37,884 nucleotides of DNA from positions 1 to 37,884 of IMG/VR virus record IMGVR_UViG_3300025280_000077; one strand, written 5' to 3'. Position numbers and translations under genes: made by a program. This DNA is from a virus. Shown piece after piece: positions 5,160 through 37,873 of the stretch. Position 1 is the first letter of the stretch. The number at the start of each line of letters is the position of its first letter. The notes below the pieces were generated by a model. It saw only the letters and a program-made list of their open reading frames with translations, was not told the origin of the DNA and searched no databases.

Positions 5160-5464
5160 TGGCAGCAATAGAATTTAGTGTAAGAGAAATATTAAGTAGA
5201 GTACGACAAGCAGTCCCAAAAGCTAGAGAAAACTATGTGATGAATCTAATCAATCAAGGATTGGTAGAGATGGGAAAGTATTCTATTAAAACAGAATATG
5301 GTAAAACAAATTTGGTAAATGAACAACTATGGTATGGATTAGATGATGATAGAGATATTACAATAAATAAAATATTTAGAGTAAGTATTTTAAATTCAGA
5401 TAGTGAATATATACAAATACCTAGATTATTAAATCAAGAAATTAAAATAACAGATACGGAGTAA
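5159..5464 (+). CDS. Head-tail adaptor-like protein, N-half
   Basis: A 101-residue protein: helical N-terminus (SVREILSRVRQAVPKA, NYVMNLINQGLVEMG) followed by beta-type segments ending LLNQEIKITDTE. The order of helices then strands matches the first half of the N-terminal domain of the 859-residue protein, and the next gene matches its second half. It is therefore probably one part of a two-gene adaptor or neck component. One-base overlap with the previous gene; three bases to the next. Confidence 0.5.
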   Translation: MAAIEFSVREILSRVRQAVPKARENYVMNLINQGLVEMGKYSIKTEYGKTNLVNEQLWYGLDDDRDITINKIFRVSILNSDSEYIQIPRLLNQEIKITDTE

Positions 5465-5467
5465 AAA

Positions 5468-5929
5468 ATGGCAGCAGTAACCAGCACATATACCGACCCT
5501 TCCGATTCATTTGTATGGTGGGTTGAGGGAGATAAACTTGCTATAGCTACTACAGAAGACGATGGTGGTACTACAGAAACCGCTACGGGCAAATATAAAG
5601 CAGCAATCATTGGTTCTGGTTCAGACTATGTTACAAATGGATTGTTGATTTCTTATTATGCAGAACCAGACGAAGTAACAGCGGTAACTGGTTCAGGTAG
5701 TACAGTAGATTTAGACAATCAACTACAACCCCTATTAATAGATTTTGTAAAAGCACACTTATTATTTGATGCAGCAGCAAGAGAGAAAGACCCAAATCAA
5801 TCTGCAATTAAAATGCAGTCTGGGCAAGTATTTTTAAACAACTTTAAGGAAGGACTAATAAGGTATGGCTCTAAAAAGAGTGACAAAACAGGCGGAACTA
5901 GAGCAATTCTACCATTTAGTTTTAAATAA
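5468..5929 (+). CDS. Head-tail adaptor-like protein, C-half
   Basis: A 153-residue protein. FVWWVEGDKLAIATT (about 15-29), GLLISYYAEPDEV (about 58-70) and LQPLLIDFVKAHLLFDAA (about 85-102) follow the same order as WVDGDTLQVFP, a beta segment and PAVVLYATRNALQRLM in the N-terminal domain of the 859-residue protein. The helix after the strand pair is typical of phage connector and head-completion proteins. Tight spacing to both neighbours supports assembly with the preceding protein. Ends with a basic, flexible tail. Confidence 0.5.
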   Translation: MAAVTSTYTDPSDSFVWWVEGDKLAIATTEDDGGTTETATGKYKAAIIGSGSDYVTNGLLISYYAEPDEVTAVTGSGSTVDLDNQLQPLLIDFVKAHLLFDAAAREKDPNQSAIKMQSGQVFLNNFKEGLIRYGSKKSDKTGGTRAILPFSFK

Positions 5930-5932
5930 ATT

Positions 5933-8900
5933 ATGGCTACACTTACAGGAACAAGAGTAAAAGACACTTATAAGGACCTATTACAGGTTTCTAATAGCAA
6001 TTCTGGTATTGATAGCACTTTAAGGACTGTATCAGATGGCGAAGCTACTGATAGTATTTTAGAATTAAGTAGTGCTGCTGTTAATATCACAGGAGCTGGT
6101 ACACTACAATATGGTGGAACAGCTATTACTTCTACAGCAGCCGAGTTAAATGTATTAGATGGAATTTCTGCAACCGTAACAGAATTAAATTATACAGATG
6201 GTGTAACATCAAACATTCAAACACAATTAGATGCAACACTAGATACAGCTGGTTCATTAATAGATTTAAGTTCAACTACTATTAATGTAGACTTGACCGA
6301 AGCAGGAGAAGCTGCTATCGCCAATGGAGACTATATATTATTTTTAGATGGTGGTGCAACAGGAACACACGCAAAAGAAGCATTAGCTGATGTTGCGACT
6401 TTATTTGCAGGAAACGGACTAACAGCTACAGACTCTGTAATAGAGTCAGATGTACACGCATTAACAGAAGCTATTCTTACAAGTGGAGATTATATTGCTT
6501 TCTCAGACGAAGACCAGTCAGGAGACCCTACTCGCCGTGAAAGCATAGATGATATAGCTACGTTATTTGCAGGGACTGGTTTAACAGCTTCAAGTGCTGT
6601 AATAGGAATTGATGCAGCACAAACAGTAATTACATCTCTTTTAGCTACAGATATTAAAATTGGTGAAGATGACCAAACAAAAATAGATTTTGAAACTGCA
6701 GATACAATTAACTTTTATGCTGGAAATGAAAAACAATTAATACTTACAGATGGAGCTTTAACACCAGGAGCTGATAATATACTTGATTTAGGTTCATCTG
6801 GAGTAGAATTTAAAAATGCTTACTTTGATGGGACAGTAACTTCTGATGCCTTTGCTGGTCCTTTAACAGGAGATGTTACTGGTAACGTTTCAGGTACAGC
6901 AGCAACTGTTACAACTGCAGCACAAACTAGCATTACAAGTTTAGGTACATTGACAGCTTTAACAGTTGATGATGTCGCTATAAACGGTAAGGTTATAACG
7001 ATGACAGGTTCTAGTAGTGACACGGCTGTATTTACAGCAGGAACTAACGGAACTCTTAGTGTTGTTACAACTGATGCAGCAGCAGCAGCAGCAAACATTC
7101 AAATTACAGCAGACGGTACAGTAGATATTGATTCGGCAGGTGTCTTAACTTTAGATTCTGGTGCAGCAATCAATCTTGAACCTGCTTCTGGTTCTGCAAT
7201 TTTATTAGATGGCACAATTAGTGTAGATGCAGGAGTAGTAACAGGAGCAACAAGTGTTACATCTACTGCTTTTGTAGGCGATATAACAGGAGATGTTACT
7301 GGAAATGCAGATACTGCAACTTTAGCTACAACTGTAACTGTTACAGATAGCACAGCAAATACAAATTTCCCAGTAGTATTTCATAATGAATCCAATGCAC
7401 TATTAGATGATACTGGTGCATTACGATATAATCCAAGCACAGGAGAATTATTAGTTCCTAAATTAACCGTAGCAGGAACTACGACTACAGCAGATACAGT
7501 AACAATGGAAGCTGCAAATGCAGTTATCTTTGAAGGAGCAACTGCCGATTCTTACGAAACAACACTATCTATTGTTGACCCAACAGCAGACCACACACAA
7601 TATTTAATCAATCAAACTGGATATATTCCTTTATTAGCAGCATCAACTTCAACTGCAATTTCATCAACTCCTGCAGAATTAAATGTATTAGATGGATATA
7701 CTGGAAGTGTTACAGAATTAAATTATTTAGATACCTTACACGCAACAGGCGTTACCAATACTGAATTTGATTATTTAGATGGAGTAACATCAAATATTCA
7801 AACACAGTTAGACGCAACACTTGATACAGCAGGAACAGGTATAGACATATCAAGCACTACAGTTTCAGTAGATGTATCAGACTTTATGGCTAATGGTGCT
7901 AACAACTATATTGTAACTGCTACTGGCACAGATGCTATGAACGCAGAAGCCAATCTTACTTTTGATGGAACGAGTTTAGGGGTTGGAACTACATCACCTG
8001 AAGGTAAAGTCCACATTTATCAATCTGATGCAAGTGTAGCTCCTGATAGTGATGGAGATGATTTAGTTATTGAAAGTAATGCTGATACTGGTATTAGTAT
8101 TTTAGCAGGAGAGAGTAATGGAGAAACTGGCTCATTAATCTTTGGAAGTGATAATGATGCCTATGGAGCAGGACTTGCTTATCATTATTACGATAAAACT
8201 CTTTCTTTAAAAACTGCACACTCATCTGGAATATTAAGATTAGCAAGTGCAAATAATACTACTGCTATGACTATTGATAGTTCGCAAGATGTAACTATTA
8301 ATGCAGGTAGTTTAACATTACCAGTTGCTGAAAAACTATTCTTTGGTGGTGGTGCACATACTTATATCGGAGAAGATGTAGATGATAGATTAAGATTCTT
8401 TACTGGTGGTGCTGAATTTATGCGATTTACTGAAGATACTTCCAATACATTAACCTTTTATCAACCAATGAACTTTCAAGCACAAACAGTTGCTAATGTT
8501 GGAGATGTAAAAATAAATGCTACTAACAAACTTTATTTAGATGGTGGTGATGATACTTTTATAAGCCAAACTTCTGCTAATACAGTAAGTTTCTATGCAG
8601 GTGGAACAAGCAATGCAAGATGGAGTTATGATAATAATTCTGTTGATATTGCAGTAGATACAACTTTAGCAGCTACCAAGAAACTTTACTTAGATGGTGG
8701 TGGTAATACTTACATCTATGAAGAAAGTGCTGACAATGTAATGTTCTACATTGGTGGTAGAAATATGTTACGACTACACGAGGGCAATGGAGAGGTTGTT
8801 GTTAATGATAGTCAAGTAGATACTAATTTTAGAGTTGAAAGCGATACTATTGATGATTTATTCTTCTGTGATGCTGGAACTTCAAGAGTCGGTATAGGAA

Positions 8901-10183
8901 CAAATGGTCCATTTGCTAAACTTCATATTAGCAATGGAACTGCAGGTGTTTCTGCTTTAGATTTTGAAGATGCTTCAGATTGTGCTATTTTTATAGATGC
9001 AGTTCAAACAGCAGATTATTTTCAACCTTTAATTGGAGTTGGAGAAGATGCTACTACTCTTACAGCAGCAATTAGTTCTTATGATGATGGTGGTAGTGCA
9101 GCACAAGGTTTAGTATTTCATACTGGAAATACAACAAGGATAACTGAAGTGATGAGGATAACTGCTTCAGGTTCAGGATATGTTGGTATTGGAAATCCAG
9201 CACCTGCACACAGATTATCTGTATCAGATAATGGTGGTGGAACAGATGACTTCTTTATAGTAAATCCAGGAAATGGACATAATAGAACAATGGAAATTGC
9301 AGGAGATGCAATTAATGTTACAACAACAGGTGGTGGTTCTAATACATTATTATTAAATGAAGATGGTGGAGATGTTGATATATGCAATGGAAAGGTATAT
9401 GTAGATGAAAGTGCAAGTGCATTAATAGTAGGTGCAACTGCTCAAATAGCAACTGTAGGTGGAACAGGTTCGTTTCAAGTATTGGGAACTGGTGGTGGAG
9501 ATAGTCTTTTAACTATAGGAAGATTTAGTGATAATGCTGGTGCGCCACAAATAAACTTTGCTAAATCAAGAAATGGAACGATAGGTTCAAATACAGTTGT
9601 TCAAGATGATGATAGTTGTGGAGAGATAAACTGGTGTGTTTCAGATGGTTCAGATATGATTTCTTATATTGCACAATTAGAAGCAGAAGTAGATGGAACA
9701 CCAGGTAGCAATGATACACCAGGAAGACTAATGTTTAAAACTACTGCAGATGGTGCAGCAGGACCAACTGAACACTTTAGAATTGCATCTAATGGAGATT
9801 TGACTGCAACAGATACTTCTATCGCATCTAATTCTGACTTAAGATTAAAGAAGAATATTGAAAATTTTGAAGGTGGATTAGATATTATTTCTAAATTACA
9901 ACCAAGAAACTTTGAGTGGAGAAATCCTGAAATTCACAAAGAAGGAACAAGACGAGGATTTATAGCTCAAGAAGTAAAAGAAGTAGATGAGTATTGGATT
10001 AATACTAAAAAAATTAAAGAAGAAGAAAAAGATTACGAGTATGTAAAAGATACTAAAGGACAAAGTTTTGTATCTAAGTTAAACGACAAAGATGCAATGT
10101 ATGTTTCAGCTATACAAGAGCTGAAAGAAGAAATAGATTTGTTAAAAGCAAATCTTGAACAGTTAAAATATAACAGGAGATAA
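5933..10183 (+). CDS. Tail fibre/spike with C-terminal S74 self-cleaving chaperone
   Basis: A 1416-residue trimeric-fibre type protein. Residues about 60-125 and 577-650 carry related copies of ELNVLDG / TELNY / TSNIQTQLDATLDTAG, a repeat common in marine phage fibres. Three GGxxTYI-type beta repeats lie near residues 800, 865 and 917 (KLFFGGG, KLYLDGGDD, KLYLDGGGN). VGIGT-like shaft motifs with KLHI endings occur near 682, 985 and 1081. The last 116 residues are a Peptidase S74 intramolecular chaperone: SDLRLKKNI begins at Ser1301, with GFIAQEV, MYVSAIQELKEEIDLLKANLEQL coiled coil at the end. In this family the chain cuts itself just before the Ser after folding, so cleavage between Asn1300 and Ser1301 is expected. 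Confidence 0.85.
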   Translation: MATLTGTRVKDTYKDLLQVSNSNSGIDSTLRTVSDGEATDSILELSSAAVNITGAGTLQYGGTAITSTAAELNVLDGISATVTELNYTDGVTSNIQTQLDATLDTAGSLIDLSSTTINVDLTEAGEAAIANGDYILFLDGGATGTHAKEALADVATLFAGNGLTATDSVIESDVHALTEAILTSGDYIAFSDEDQSGDPTRRESIDDIATLFAGTGLTASSAVIGIDAAQTVITSLLATDIKIGEDDQTKIDFETADTINFYAGNEKQLILTDGALTPGADNILDLGSSGVEFKNAYFDGTVTSDAFAGPLTGDVTGNVSGTAATVTTAAQTSITSLGTLTALTVDDVAINGKVITMTGSSSDTAVFTAGTNGTLSVVTTDAAAAAANIQITADGTVDIDSAGVLTLDSGAAINLEPASGSAILLDGTISVDAGVVTGATSVTSTAFVGDITGDVTGNADTATLATTVTVTDSTANTNFPVVFHNESNALLDDTGALRYNPSTGELLVPKLTVAGTTTTADTVTMEAANAVIFEGATADSYETTLSIVDPTADHTQYLINQTGYIPLLAASTSTAISSTPAELNVLDGYTGSVTELNYLDTLHATGVTNTEFDYLDGVTSNIQTQLDATLDTAGTGIDISSTTVSVDVSDFMANGANNYIVTATGTDAMNAEANLTFDGTSLGVGTTSPEGKVHIYQSDASVAPDSDGDDLVIESNADTGISILAGESNGETGSLIFGSDNDAYGAGLAYHYYDKTLSLKTAHSSGILRLASANNTTAMTIDSSQDVTINAGSLTLPVAEKLFFGGGAHTYIGEDVDDRLRFFTGGAEFMRFTEDTSNTLTFYQPMNFQAQTVANVGDVKINATNKLYLDGGDDTFISQTSANTVSFYAGGTSNARWSYDNNSVDIAVDTTLAATKKLYLDGGGNTYIYEESADNVMFYIGGRNMLRLHEGNGEVVVNDSQVDTNFRVESDTIDDLFFCDAGTSRVGIGTNGPFAKLHISNGTAGVSALDFEDASDCAIFIDAVQTADYFQPLIGVGEDATTLTAAISSYDDGGSAAQGLVFHTGNTTRITEVMRITASGSGYVGIGNPAPAHRLSVSDNGGGTDDFFIVNPGNGHNRTMEIAGDAINVTTTGGGSNTLLLNEDGGDVDICNGKVYVDESASALIVGATAQIATVGGTGSFQVLGTGGGDSLLTIGRFSDNAGAPQINFAKSRNGTIGSNTVVQDDDSCGEINWCVSDGSDMISYIAQLEAEVDGTPGSNDTPGRLMFKTTADGAAGPTEHFRIASNGDLTATDTSIASNSDLRLKKNIENFEGGLDIISKLQPRNFEWRNPEIHKEGTRRGFIAQEVKEVDEYWINTKKIKEEEKDYEYVKDTKGQSFVSKLNDKDAMYVSAIQELKEEIDLLKANLEQLKYNRR

Positions 10184-10185
10184 AA

Positions 10186-10425
10186 ATGGCTAAAAATATA
10201 GCAGAAAAAGCAGTATCAAGTGTAGATGCACCTAAAAAAGTTTCAATTCAGCATCTTAAAACTTTTAAAAATGCAGCAGGTGCTGATGTAGAAGTAGTGG
10301 ATTGGACTGAATCAAAACCAGTTGATGAAGCAATTTCACAAGCAGAAGCAGATTTAGCAAGGGCAGAAGCACAAGTAACTGAACTTAAAGCAGATATTGT
10401 TGAATACAAAGCAATCAAGGGATAG
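10186..10425 (+). CDS. Small coiled-coil protein after the tail fibre
   Basis: A 79-residue protein; residues 45-79 are a regular heptad-like helix (AISQAEADLARAEAQVTELK). The N-terminal half is mixed (VSIQHLKTFKNAAGADVEVV). It starts 2 bases after the fibre stop with GGAG upstream. The place and size suit a fibre assembly factor or small tail component, but no family is recognised. Confidence 0.5.
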   Translation: MAKNIAEKAVSSVDAPKKVSIQHLKTFKNAAGADVEVVDWTESKPVDEAISQAEADLARAEAQVTELKADIVEYKAIKG

Positions 10426-10429
10426 TATC

Positions 10430-30992: not shown

Positions 30993-31751
30993 CTATTTAT
31001 CTCCTTTCGGAGTCCATTCTCCAACGTCTTCATTATATTCTAAATCATTCGTCATATTATCTCTTGCATAGTCCAAGTTCTTTTCTCGTTCCGCTTCATC
31101 TTTAGCATAGTCATCATCTACTTCTTGTTCTTTAGAAGTTATAGCGGTATAACTATGGTCTTTTATATTAAAGTATTTTTTCTTTTGTTCTATCATTTTT
31201 AAGTCCTCCATTCCTTGTATCTTTTGTTCAGTTTTTGCAGAAAAATCTCTAGTTCTTGGGCCATCAACAACACTAAAATCAAATCCTATATCAGTTAAAA
31301 GTTCTAACCTATAAGGGTGTAGCTTTCCAAGTTTCCAATCTTTCCTTTGTGCCATTACCCACAAAGATAGTCTGTGTAGGTTTTTATCCTTATCAGATAT
31401 CCACTTCCCCTCACTATCTAATCTATGTGGAAATCTATCTGTTCTAATTTGTGAGGGTATTTCTCCATATCGTTCTATATGTTTAGAGAGTTCTTTATAT
31501 CTTGTCAGCCATACATTGCTCTGTCTGGACCACATAAAACCCCACTCATTTAACAAGTGAAACTTTTCCATTTGTAAAATTCTTTTATTAAATCTATTGC
31601 GTTGTGCTGATACCCATGCGTAAAGTTTTCGTTCAACCTTACCATTAACTTGTTGTGGATATCTACCATGCTTGGCTACAAATTGTTTTAACTTCTCAAA
31701 TCTATATAGCCAATTACTATTTATCTTTTTTTCTTTTGGTGTATATTTCAT
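30993..31751 (-). CDS. Protein with two helicase-associated (HA) domains
   Basis: A 252-residue basic protein. Residues about 14-75 (WLYRFEKLKQFVAKHGRYPQ ... LYAWVSAQRNRFN ... LLNEWGFMW) and about 80-158 (WLTRYKELSKHIERYGEIPS ... LSLWVMAQRKDWK ... LLTDIGFDF) are two copies of the HA domain (Pfam PF03457): W..R...L..., hG..P, L..W...QR, L..lGF.W. This three-helix DNA-binding unit normally occurs behind a superfamily 2 helicase; here no helicase motor is attached. The last 80 residues are acidic and disordered. It probably binds DNA, perhaps as a regulator or replication accessory factor. A good promoter-like element lies at 31776-31807 and GGAGG before the ATG. Confidence 0.7.
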   Translation of the reverse strand: MKYTPKEKKINSNWLYRFEKLKQFVAKHGRYPQQVNGKVERKLYAWVSAQRNRFNKRILQMEKFHLLNEWGFMWSRQSNVWLTRYKELSKHIERYGEIPSQIRTDRFPHRLDSEGKWISDKDKNLHRLSLWVMAQRKDWKLGKLHPYRLELLTDIGFDFSVVDGPRTRDFSAKTEQKIQGMEDLKMIEQKKKYFNIKDHSYTAITSKEQEVDDDYAKDEAEREKNLDYARDNMTNDLEYNEDVGEWTPKGDK

Positions 31752-31775
31752 ACAACCTCCTTTTAATTTCTATTA

Positions 31776-31807
31776 CATATACGAACCCAATCAATAAAGG
31801 TTCCCAA
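31776..31807 (-). promoter_or_regulatory. Repeated promoter-like element (copy c)
   Basis: On the - strand TTGGGAACC (31807-31799), 17 bases, then TATATG (31781-31776). Lies 25 bases upstream of the HA-domain gene start and probably drives the long - strand operon beyond it. Conserved spacing with ten other copies. Confidence 0.7.
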
Positions 31808-31816
31808 TTATTATTA

Positions 31817-32091
31817 AGGCATTGTGTATTGCCTATGTTTATACTCATACACATGGAATAATTTTAATCGGATTTCCATGGTCGCTAGTCGGTATTACAT
31901 ATAATCGTTGCATCCTAGATTTGCACTAGGCGTTATAACCCCAGTCAGCACTTCTGTCCGAACCTTAATATTGTGAGCCTACAATCAGTTGTTAATCATG
32001 CCATCCTACTTCACAATCAATCTCCTTTTAATATAGGCTCAATCATATTTCAAATATCTTTTTTTCTTTGGGCTGGGTTTTACCCCAGCCC
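31817..32091 (-). ncRNA. Candidate structured RNA between - strand genes
   Basis: This part of the 349-base gap (31752-32100) has no ORF of note but nested pairing. TCGGA 31868-31872 faces TCCGA 31957-31961; inside it 31884-31898 faces 31935-31949 with 12 of 15 pairs; inside that is the perfect hairpin CCTAG-7-CTAGG (31914-31930). Four of the 12 pairs are G-U only if the - strand is read; read as + strand RNA fewer pairs form, which favours - strand transcription. Further arms: TGAGCCTA 31974-31981 with TAGGCTCA 32034-32041, AGGCA/TGCCT at 31817-31834, and a GC-rich hairpin at 32070-32091. No known RNA class is recognised. Confidence 0.45.
32070..32091 (-). terminator. Strong GC hairpin after the peptidase-like gene
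   Basis: GGGCTGGG (32070-32077) and CCCAGCCC (32084-32091) form a perfect 8-bp stem with a 6-base loop, ten bases past the stop of the gene at 32101-32496. On the - strand it is followed by an A-rich, not T-rich, stretch, so it is not a classical intrinsic terminator in that direction; on the + strand TGTGTTTATTTATTT follows. It may end or protect the - strand transcript, or stop + strand readthrough. Confidence 0.45.
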
Positions 32092-32100
32092 TGTGTTTAT

Positions 32101-32496
32101 TTATTTAATCCAGTATGAATTACCACACGACTTCCTACAATCCCAAACATCATACATTATTCCGTCTTTTATGCAAGTCAAATGACCAGCAGTAAGAACT
32201 ATGTATGTGCCTTCGGTCTTGTAATTTTTCAAACGAACCTTTTTGTTATGACCATTCTTCATGGGACTATGTTTTTTCCAGCCTATTGAAATCAGGTATG
32301 GTTCGTAAGTCTTTTTAGCATTCGGAAGGTATCCAGTAGTAATTGCTAAATTACACAAATCCGTAAAGACTTTCATATAATCAAGACCTGTTGCGTGTGC
32401 TATTGCTCTAATAACACAATCAAAAGTTATGTCTTTTTTATATTTAGTAGAGAAATACTTTTCCCTACCACCAAACGACTTTTTAAATCTTATCAT
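32101..32496 (-). CDS. Papain-like cysteine peptidase-fold protein
   Basis: A 131-residue protein: ITFDCVIRAIAHATGLDYMK (23-42) gives a Cys27 at the start of a helix; near the end TYIVLTAGHLTCIKDGIMYD gives His105 on a strand, with Asp116 or Asp119 (VWDCRK) after it. Cys-helix, strand-His, strand-Asp is the order of C39/papain-like peptidases and similar phage proteins (DCVxRAIA ... GHLxxIKDGxxYDTWD). It may cut a host or phage protein or an isopeptide/amide bond. It is a single-gene unit with its own promoter element and leader hairpin upstream. Activity is not proven by sequence alone. Confidence 0.55.
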   Translation of the reverse strand: MIRFKKSFGGREKYFSTKYKKDITFDCVIRAIAHATGLDYMKVFTDLCNLAITTGYLPNAKKTYEPYLISIGWKKHSPMKNGHNKKVRLKNYKTEGTYIVLTAGHLTCIKDGIMYDVWDCRKSCGNSYWIK

Positions 32497-32540
32497 TTAG
32501 CCTCCTTATTTTAAGGGTTAACAATTTTAAAATAGCTATC

Positions 32541-32558
32541 GTAAACATTTCTGCTTAC
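32541..32558 (-). promoter_or_regulatory. 5' leader hairpin (copy b)
   Basis: Read on the - strand, GTAAGCA, loop GAAA, TGTTTAC: a 7-bp stem with one G-U pair and a GNRA-type tetraloop, starting about six bases past the -10-like hexamer. The related hairpin at 36362-36381 keeps the stem with G-C in place of G-U and a different loop, so pairing is conserved. The following bases (CGATAG, then TATTTTAAAATT) are also shared. Confidence 0.6.
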
Positions 32559-32563
32559 TACTA

Positions 32564-32595
32564 CTTATATGCCACAAACCTAAAAAGGTTCCCAA
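32564..32595 (-). promoter_or_regulatory. Repeated promoter-like element (copy b)
   Basis: On the - strand TTGGGAACC (32595-32587), 17 bases, TATAAG (32569-32564). It drives the peptidase-like gene at 32101-32496 through a leader of about 65 bases that contains the hairpin at 32541-32558. Confidence 0.75.
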
Positions 32596-32599
32596 CTAT

Positions 32600-32885
32600 T
32601 TTTTTCTCCTTCATAAATACTAGTGGGGGCTTTTAGATATAATTGCTATGCAATAACTAATTAGATATTCTTATTAGTGTCCGCAGACATCATATATAAC
32701 ATTTTCTCTAACTATTTACTACCCTAACAAACACTCTTTCGCAAAGAGTGGCGACAATATCCACCACCCCCAAGTTTTCAAATATAATTTTTAGGGACAC
32801 CACATCAACGAACTAATATGAAAAGCAGATATAATCAATATACTACTAACCCCTTTTAATGTGGGTTGTATGACATAGTGTCCCT
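32600..32885 (-). ncRNA. Hairpin-rich gap, candidate structured 3' region or RNA
   Basis: The gap between genes (32497-32884) holds no convincing ORF. Between the promoter copy and the stop at 32885 there are: AGGGACAC 32793-32800 with GTGTCCCT 32878-32885 (perfect, starting at the stop codon); inside it CCACAT 32800-32805 with ATGTGG 32859-32864; perfect CACTCTTT-3-AAAGAGTG at 32732-32750; TGTC-4-GACA at 32678-32689; and ATTGC-3-GCAAT at 32642-32654. The density of perfect stems in such AT-rich DNA suggests a structured RNA or 3' untranslated region of the upstream - strand operon. Confidence 0.45.
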
Positions 32886-35368: not shown

Positions 35369-35400
35369 CTCTAACATCAGAAACTAATAAAAGTTCCCAA
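35369..35400 (-). promoter_or_regulatory. Repeated promoter-like element (copy e)
   Basis: On the - strand TTGGGAACT (35400-35392), 17 bases, TTAGAG (35374-35369). Lies between the stop at 35406 and ATG 35336; starts the two-gene unit 35336-34897. Confidence 0.7.
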
Positions 35401-35639: not shown

Positions 35640-36027
35640 TTTATACTCACTTTCTTTGTTGTTATATTCTTAAACCTAAATAGCGTTGGCACAGTTAATC
35701 CAAACTTTAAAATGAGCATACTCTTACACGCAAGTCCTTATTGTTGAACATATGTCAATTCCTTTTAAATAGCCCTTTTACTATAACGCAAACCTATTAC
35801 GAGTTATTACTATTTAAGTTTAATTTTAAGTCATTTTTATTAGGTAGTGAACAACTAACGAAGAAAAAGTAATTACTCAATTTCCTTTTAGCGTCTTTTC
35901 TCATTTAAAGCAGTTTTAATCTTGCAAGTTTCTTAAAATTGAGGCCTTTAATCCAAACTAATGTCTTCAAAACCTTTCTTATATAAATGAATTCACTACC
36001 TAATTTTTCAAATATCTTTTCTATTTA
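35640..36027 (-). other. Long leader without a convincing gene
   Basis: Between promoter copy f and the gene at 35406-35639. Only very short - strand frames occur: ATG 35719 to a TGA overlapping the next ATG (27 codons, weak binding site), and a 14-codon frame with AAAGGAA upstream near 35750. Neither is strong. Composition is AT-rich with no long inverted repeats that I can see. It may hold leader peptides, a regulatory RNA or decayed genes. Confidence 0.35.
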
Positions 36028-36059
36028 CTCTAACATCCTACACTTTAAAAGGTTCCCAA
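36028..36059 (-). promoter_or_regulatory. Repeated promoter-like element (copy f)
   Basis: On the - strand TTGGGAACC (36059-36051), 17 bases, TTAGAG (36033-36028). Spacer nearly identical to copy a (TTTTAAAGTGTAG), showing recent duplication. It lies just past the stop of the gene at 36075. Confidence 0.7.
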
Positions 36060-36386: not shown

Positions 36387-36418
36387 CTTATATGCTCTAC
36401 ACTTTAAAAGGTTCCCAA
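36387..36418 (-). promoter_or_regulatory. Repeated promoter-like element (copy a)
   Basis: On the - strand TTGGGAACC (36418-36410), 17 bases, TATAAG (36392-36387), followed by TAGTAGTAAG and the leader hairpin. Diverges from the + strand copy g 43 bases away, making 36320-36523 the switch between the - and + strand blocks. Confidence 0.75.
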
Positions 36419-36522: not shown

Positions 36523-36792
36523 ATGACAAAAAAACACTTTGAAAAAATGGCAAAATTAATTAAAAATAATACAAGTATTTATGTTGATAGAAAAAATAAT
36601 ATTACAGAAAATCAAATAGAATACAATGATTTTATAAATGATTTAATAGAATACTTTGAACAAGAAAATATTAATTTTAATAAAGATAAATTTATTAAAG
36701 CCTTAGGTAATTTATCTTTATTAAATAAGGATAATATTGAAACAAATAATATTATTATAGACGATATACAAAATAAATGGGAACCTTTTTAA
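36523..36792 (+). CDS. Hypothetical AT-rich accessory protein
   Basis: An 89-residue Asn/Lys/Ile/Asp-rich protein: KKHFEKMAKLIKNNTSIYVD, NDFINDLIEYFEQENINF, then LGNLSLLNKDNIETNN. AAGGAAT lies upstream of the ATG. The last codons KWEPF and TAA contain the ATGGGAACC box of the next promoter. Very A-rich codon use compared with the late genes. No family recognised. Confidence 0.5.
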   Translation: MTKKHFEKMAKLIKNNTSIYVDRKNNITENQIEYNDFINDLIEYFEQENINFNKDKFIKALGNLSLLNKDNIETNNIIIDDIQNKWEPF

Positions 36793-37841: not shown

Positions 37842-37873
37842 TTGGGAACCTTAGCCCCCTTAGATAGTAGTAA
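37842..37873 (+). promoter_or_regulatory. Repeated promoter-like element (copy k)
   Basis: TTGGGAACC (37842-37850), 17 bases, TAGTAA (37868-37873) at the right edge. CCCTTA (37857-37862) and TAAGGG (37871-37876) can form a 6-bp hairpin around it. It should drive a + strand gene starting beyond the window. Confidence 0.6.

Follow-up and report, generated by a model that had tools for sequence, protein, structure and literature searches.

A predicted pseudoknotted RNA of approximately 159 nucleotides, designated element X, is encoded on the minus strand of a phage contig (IMG/VR virus record IMGVR_UViG_3300025280_000077; the whole stretch of 37,884 nucleotides that was analysed is referred to as the window). 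Comparison with other phages places it in a putative small RNA family that is absent from Rfam, a phage structured non-coding RNA that had not been catalogued previously. With moderate confidence, we assign the window copy (31812-31970) to a new family of pseudoknotted RNAs that are portable, ORF-less cassettes and act as RNA in their own right. Phage genomes can accommodate little non-coding DNA, and conserved portable RNA structures in them are therefore probably important, either for infection or for the element itself. Moreover, a pseudoknot that keeps its pairing despite a changed sequence strongly indicates an RNA under selection.

Genomic context of element X

The gap that contains X measures 349 bases (31752-32100) and is flanked by two genes on the minus strand, which carries most of the genes to the right of approximately 25.3 kb. 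Both the size of this gap and the shared direction of the proposed RNA and its flanking genes had been pointed out in a sequence-only reading of this DNA, and both were confirmed. The features of the locus are the following:

30993..31751, minus strand: downstream gene, helicase-associated (HA) domain protein (PF03457, E = 8.7e-20)
31776..31807, minus strand: ECF-like promoter of the downstream gene (TTGGGAACC ... GTATATG), of a type that recurs ahead of many units in the window and its relatives
31812..31970, minus strand: element X, the whole pseudoknotted RNA, supported by structural descriptor, covariance model and covariation
31968..32048, minus strand: stem-loop UGAGCCUAUA/UGUAGGCUCA, 81 nt
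32048..32062, minus strand: box AAAAGATATTTGAAA, with a second copy at 36006-36020 and altered versions before other elements in relatives
32070..32091, minus strand: GC-rich 3' hairpin of gene 32101-32496
32101..32496, minus strand: upstream gene, unknown function (match to PHROG 3754)
32585..32595, minus strand: ECF-like promoter box upstream of gene 32101-32496, the nearest promoter seen upstream of X, conserved in position in G001 and G013
32615..32784, minus strand: element B, a second conserved RNA of approximately 165 nt in the next gap (12 phage contigs, 43 pairs)

The promoter-like repeat (TTGGGAACCTT, approximately 16 bases, GTATAAG or similar), which we take to resemble ECF-sigma promoters, precedes successive early units in the window and in its relatives. 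With at most one mismatch, the TTGGGAACCTT box is present in seven copies in the window (31797-31807, 32585-32595, 35390-35400, 36049-36059, 36408-36418, 36777-36787, and 37842-37852) versus 0.78 expected, and two copies of the AAAAGATATTTGAAA box were counted versus 0.01 expected. The 3' end of X sits 4 bases before the promoter-like element at 31776-31807, and X is therefore not a leader of the downstream gene, by which a riboswitch or other 5' leader was ruled out. No promoter of X's own was seen in the window.

The virus is distant from cultured phages. Proteins from another contig of the same virus matched PHROG terminase and portal families, and the terminase was approximately 25-27% identical to its cultured-phage counterparts, among the best-covered matches. 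Contig G004 (L050-L052) represents the same virus in an assembly order that is circularly permuted relative to the window, and the segment at approximately 7189-10429 of the window, located inside a long S74-like tail gene, has no counterpart in G004.

Architecture of element X

The plan of X was derived by comparing the window with G006, G010, G012, G001, and G008. Its order is P1, GGU, the S1 5' strand, loop 1, the S2 5' strand, A or AA, the S1 3' strand, UUAAA, the remainder of loop 3, the S2 3' strand, a variable segment, ACAA(A/U)G, and the P1 3' strand. As this comparison shows, S1 is predicted to pair with the loop of S2, giving an H-type pseudoknot inside P1. In the window the parts are located as follows:

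31963..31970, minus strand: closing stem P1, 5' strand UAUUAAGG, pairs with 31812-31819
31812..31819, minus strand: closing stem P1, 3' strand CCUUAAUA, pairs with 31963-31970
31957..31961, minus strand: pseudoknot helix S1, 5' strand UCGGA, same register in all members with differing sequences
31868..31872, minus strand: pseudoknot helix S1, 3' strand UCCGA, within the S2 loop, supported by register and covariation
31874..31880, minus strand: helix S2, 5' strand CAUGGAA, pairs with 31852-31858
31852..31858, minus strand: helix S2, 3' strand UUCCAUG, pairs with 31874-31880
31863..31867, minus strand: loop motif UUAAA, invariant in all members and for some of them also a search anchor
31881..31951, minus strand: extra arm in loop 1, including 31884/31935, present only in this phage and comparatively unsupported
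31914..31930, minus strand: tip hairpin of the extra arm, CCUAG/CUAGG, seen in the sequence only
31824..31852, minus strand: possible arm after S2, GUGUAU/AUACAC (31847-31852 with 31824-31829), likewise a sequence-level proposal, sharing base 31852 with S2

P1, S1, and S2 of the window copy comprise 8, 5, and 7 pairs, respectively. Members of the family range from approximately 84 to 160 nt, the shortest being 84 nt, and both loop 1 and the segment after S2 tolerate extra arms. X contains no ORF and is present in a single copy per site, without a repeat of it in the window.

The sequence-only reading had proposed a new structured RNA of 275 nt with three nested helices (31868/31957, 31884/31935, and hairpin 31914-31930) stacked on one axis, next to a GC-rich hairpin. 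All of these could be located at their positions. The placement on the minus strand between two transcription units is retained and has gained comparative support, but the single stacked 275-nt RNA is not: 31868/31957 is comparatively supported as the pseudoknot helix, whereas 31884/31935 and 31914-31930 are without a homolog. Moreover, P1 (31963-31970/31812-31819) and S2 (31874-31880/31852-31858) had been omitted, the latter crossing S1.

Folding energy and other structures in the gap

Folding of 31817-32091 was stronger as minus-strand RNA (z -4.49) than as plus-strand RNA (z -1.30), and the strand that had been proposed therefore holds. This energy excess is located in the hairpin at 32070-32091 (z -4.75) and the stem-loop at 31968-32048 (z -3.85). 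The three nested helices do not account for it, as 31817-31970 folded no better than shuffled sequence (z -0.16); the arm at 31881-31951 scored z +0.28, and by energy alone the three helices are at chance level.

The same GC hairpin follows the homolog of gene 32101-32496 in G001 and G013, with a compensating U-A/A-U change, and in both the next gene begins soon after it with no RNA element in between. Because of this conservation the hairpin, which had been considered part of the same RNA as the nested helices, is predicted to be a separate structure that belongs to the upstream gene. No homolog of the stem-loop at 31968-32048 was found in the relatives compared. The GC hairpin is not followed by a T-run, and no minus-strand terminator-like site, i.e., a GC hairpin plus T-run, was found in 31700-32200, by which an intrinsic terminator was rejected.

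Relatives of element X

A 165-nt stretch in the next gap (32497-32884) is 86% identical to non-coding DNA of G001, and a 16-mer taken from it fetched more contigs, yielding 12 genomes that all contain element B. Several of these B-bearing genomes have a small second element after B, with an AGG.../...CCT stem, directly before a TGGGAAC promoter. The first blastn similarity between the gap region under study and this second element included promoter bases; with those bases removed, the Smith-Waterman score was 54 versus 21.9 ± 4.1 for shuffled sequence. A covariance model built from three other phages, with the window excluded, ranked 31820-31901 (minus strand) first in the window (E = 0.009), and when the same model was run over 355 kb the window match was marginal (E = 0.087) with P1 placed differently.

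A structural descriptor, composed of P1, S1 in register between GGU and UUAAA, S2, and the ACAA(A/U)G tail, identified 11 distinct X sequences in approximately 3 Mb (both strands), among which the window copy had the top score; one borderline match in coding sequence at another locus was taken as false. It gave no match in 5.9 Mb of control sequence that had been reversed or complemented. The descriptor was written after the window had been seen, and the informative part is therefore the empty control together with the new members L145, L178, and L186, which were fetched by their AGGU, UUAAA, and tail anchors only, leaving S1, S2, and the outer P1 pairs unused. A first, lax descriptor gave many false matches, and among the matches listed for two gapped-pattern scans most were unrelated loci; the structural descriptor alone separated members.

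Besides these searches, the flanking genes used as bait retrieved few relatives. An exact 18-mer of the extra arm was found in the same phage and in one coding sequence of an unrelated phage, which was dismissed as a chance match. Blastn with X or the whole gap returned nothing significant in 50,697 cultured-phage and 72,556 plasmid records. In agreement with the earlier statement that no known riboswitch core is recognised, no Rfam 15 family was matched at gathering score in the window and 12 relative loci, and relaxed thresholds returned chance-level scores only (E = 1.7 and 4 for the gap); weak matches to Bacteroides-1, DUF2693, and ncr1241 were dismissed for scores far under the cut-off. 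The literature searched, which was covered in part, contained no description of the X family.

Covariation and register of the pseudoknot

The check for compensating changes in homologous gaps, proposed along with the initial reading, was run, and such changes were found for the closing stem, S1, and S2 of X. S1 pairs differ by lineage (UGG/CCA, UGU/GCA, UAGC/GCUA, and GCAG/CUGC; UCGGA/UCCGA in the window; CAU/AUG in L186), and in every case the base immediately following GGU pairs with the one preceding UUAAA. When S1 strands were matched to their own partners the pairing total was 19; only the true arrangement attained this total among 120 permutations, and 200,000 random draws never attained it.

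Since MAFFT alignment of full members shifted the conserved AGG, a hand-made composite of the core columns was used for covariation, comprising six members with approximately six independent S1 sequences and short helices. In this composite, which is biased towards structure because it was arranged by hand, 92.0% of the cells are paired, the corresponding values being 68.4% for shuffles and 23-45% for slid controls. Across its six members 10 of the 16 core pairs changed on both sides, including three of six in P1 and two of five in S2. The sense strand of X accepts G-U and U-G pairs. The assignment of 31868-31872/31957-31961 (S1) as a covarying pseudoknot helix is strongly supported by the comparison of these putative members.

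Apparent mobility of element X

The X of L178 differs from that of G001 only by one base and an indel in an arm, and the 1.5 kb on either side of it has no similarity to any family genome. The L145 copy, too, has a different genomic neighbourhood, in which limited similarity is confined to the 3' side. Sites in G009 and G014 resemble the G001 and G010 sites without the element, with one AGATTT or TAATT versus two at filled sites; these are candidate empty sites, which could be explained by deletion between the short repeats rather than by insertion. On account of the near-identical copy in unrelated flanks and the candidate empty sites, the cassette looks mobile, and the occurrence of X in unrelated intergenic places of uncultured phages suggests a compact RNA unit that may move between viruses. 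In the contexts examined X has the direction of its neighbouring genes, and no constant gene partner was seen among the members, the preceding genes being different. Only tentatively do we entertain that X is an autonomous mobile RNA element, ORF-less and of approximately 85-160 nt, which would spread between unrelated phages as one of several cassettes, together with B and D, that are shuffled between genes; an element moving on its own would be a very small mobile RNA.

Possible role and alternative explanations

In this phage X would form the last part of a unit transcribed from the promoter near 32595. It may act as a small RNA, either released or borne on a 3'-UTR, with the pseudoknot as its protein-binding part, and not as a cis switch. 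The most economical guess, but only a guess, would be that it serves as a decoy for an RNase or an RNA-binding defence protein of the host. If X binds a host protein it would be a new phage tool, and the 84-nt members are easy to make and probe. In L186, X begins directly after TTGCAA-N16-TATATA, which nearly repeats a promoter-like site located ahead of the next gene, and this start suggests that the L186 copy may be a stand-alone RNA; a consensus scan listed the next-gene site and did not list the one before X. The L186 copy (reverse strand, approximately 5370-5460) has TTATCCACA, a DnaA-box sequence, on both flanks.

The main rival, which we hold to be rather unlikely, is that X acts in cis only, as a 3'-UTR structure by which the phage transcript ahead of it would have its 3' end protected or defined and would be insulated from the promoter that follows. 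X indeed follows a gene or RNA and directly precedes a promoter in the window and the B-bearing relatives, it runs in the same direction as the genes, and the GC hairpin at 32070-32091 shows that 3' structures are retained in this phage. However, the X of L186 seems to start a transcript, the genes before X vary among members, and neither the fixed register of the pseudoknot nor its motif is needed for a role in RNA stability.

The inverted-repeat ends, the A/T-rich flanking repeats (AGATTT or TAATT), and the near-identical X copy in unrelated flanks would also be compatible with X, B, and D being passive, selfish, or recombination-prone mobile DNA (MITE-like), in which the fold matters for movement only or as single-strand DNA hairpins. 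This is improbable in our judgement, since the sense strand tolerates G-U pairs, which favours RNA, the orientation relative to genes is constant, and plain terminal repeats are not expected to give a pseudoknot. Chance, i.e., an unstructured spacer that resembles X through its A/T-rich sequence and the shared promoter, could account for the lack of an energetic signal in the X region itself and for the promoter bases within the first blastn similarity. The similarity nevertheless survives removal of the promoter, the covariation and register tests contradict this explanation, and the descriptor gives no match in control sequence, which makes it very improbable indeed.

Comparison with known structured RNAs

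As a member of a putative family of pseudoknotted RNA cassettes, X can be compared with several known systems. ToxI, a type III antitoxin, is a 36-nt H-type pseudoknot encoded as a tandem repeat array, and the pseudo-ToxI of phage PhiTE counters a host system by RNA mimicry, with pseudoknot RNA as a decoy (PMC3475682). X is likewise a small H-type pseudoknot RNA, in which the covarying S1 crosses S2, but whereas the ToxI array lies beside a toxin gene or is aimed at one, X occurs as a single copy of 84-160 nt, is enclosed by a closing stem, and has no Rfam match; no toxin family, ToxN or other, was found among the neighbours of X (Pfam, PADLOC). Phages and prophages also encode GOLLD and ROOL, structured RNAs of unknown function (PMC12286853); in contrast to X, which is short and has neither a tRNA nearby nor an Rfam match, they are hundreds of nucleotides long, lie near tRNA islands, and are included in Rfam. 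The manA, wcaG, and PhotoRC-II motifs of marine phages were also found by comparison (PMC2864571), but are thought to reside in the 5' UTRs of particular genes, whereas X precedes the next promoter and is not associated with any one gene.

Other known classes found no support. ARAGORN predicted no tRNA or tmRNA gene, in line with the initial judgement that the RNA is not a tRNA, and a tRNA-like reading is unsupported by the sequence. For a self-splicing intron or self-cleaving ribozyme there was no match to any Rfam family, and a group I intron is likewise unsupported.

Additional RNA elements

Element B of the next gap has 98% of its cells paired across the 12 phage contigs, with compensating changes in eight pairs, and no Rfam match; as a strongly covarying new RNA, this predicted element is better supported than X itself. 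A 19-mer of B matched one genome contig, of Pseudomonas (L116), which may be due to chance. Element C (35795-36024 of the window, minus strand), found only in this phage, has a 13-bp long-range stem (ATTAGGTAGTGAA/TTCACTACCTAAT) around approximately 140 nt, and is located after a promoter and a AAAAGATATTTGAAA box. Element D is a 346-nt non-coding stretch closed by GGAGATTAT/ATAATCTCC (L117:1349-1694, L118:2269-2613, L123:4091-4474), of which two phages have versions that are 94.5% identical and the third a modular one; the matching site of G015 apparently lacks it. Finally, in G002 (L056) similar hairpins with a GTTTAAAC loop, in the context AAACCGAAA...CTATT, follow several genes, for example near 5691, 6387, and 7119.
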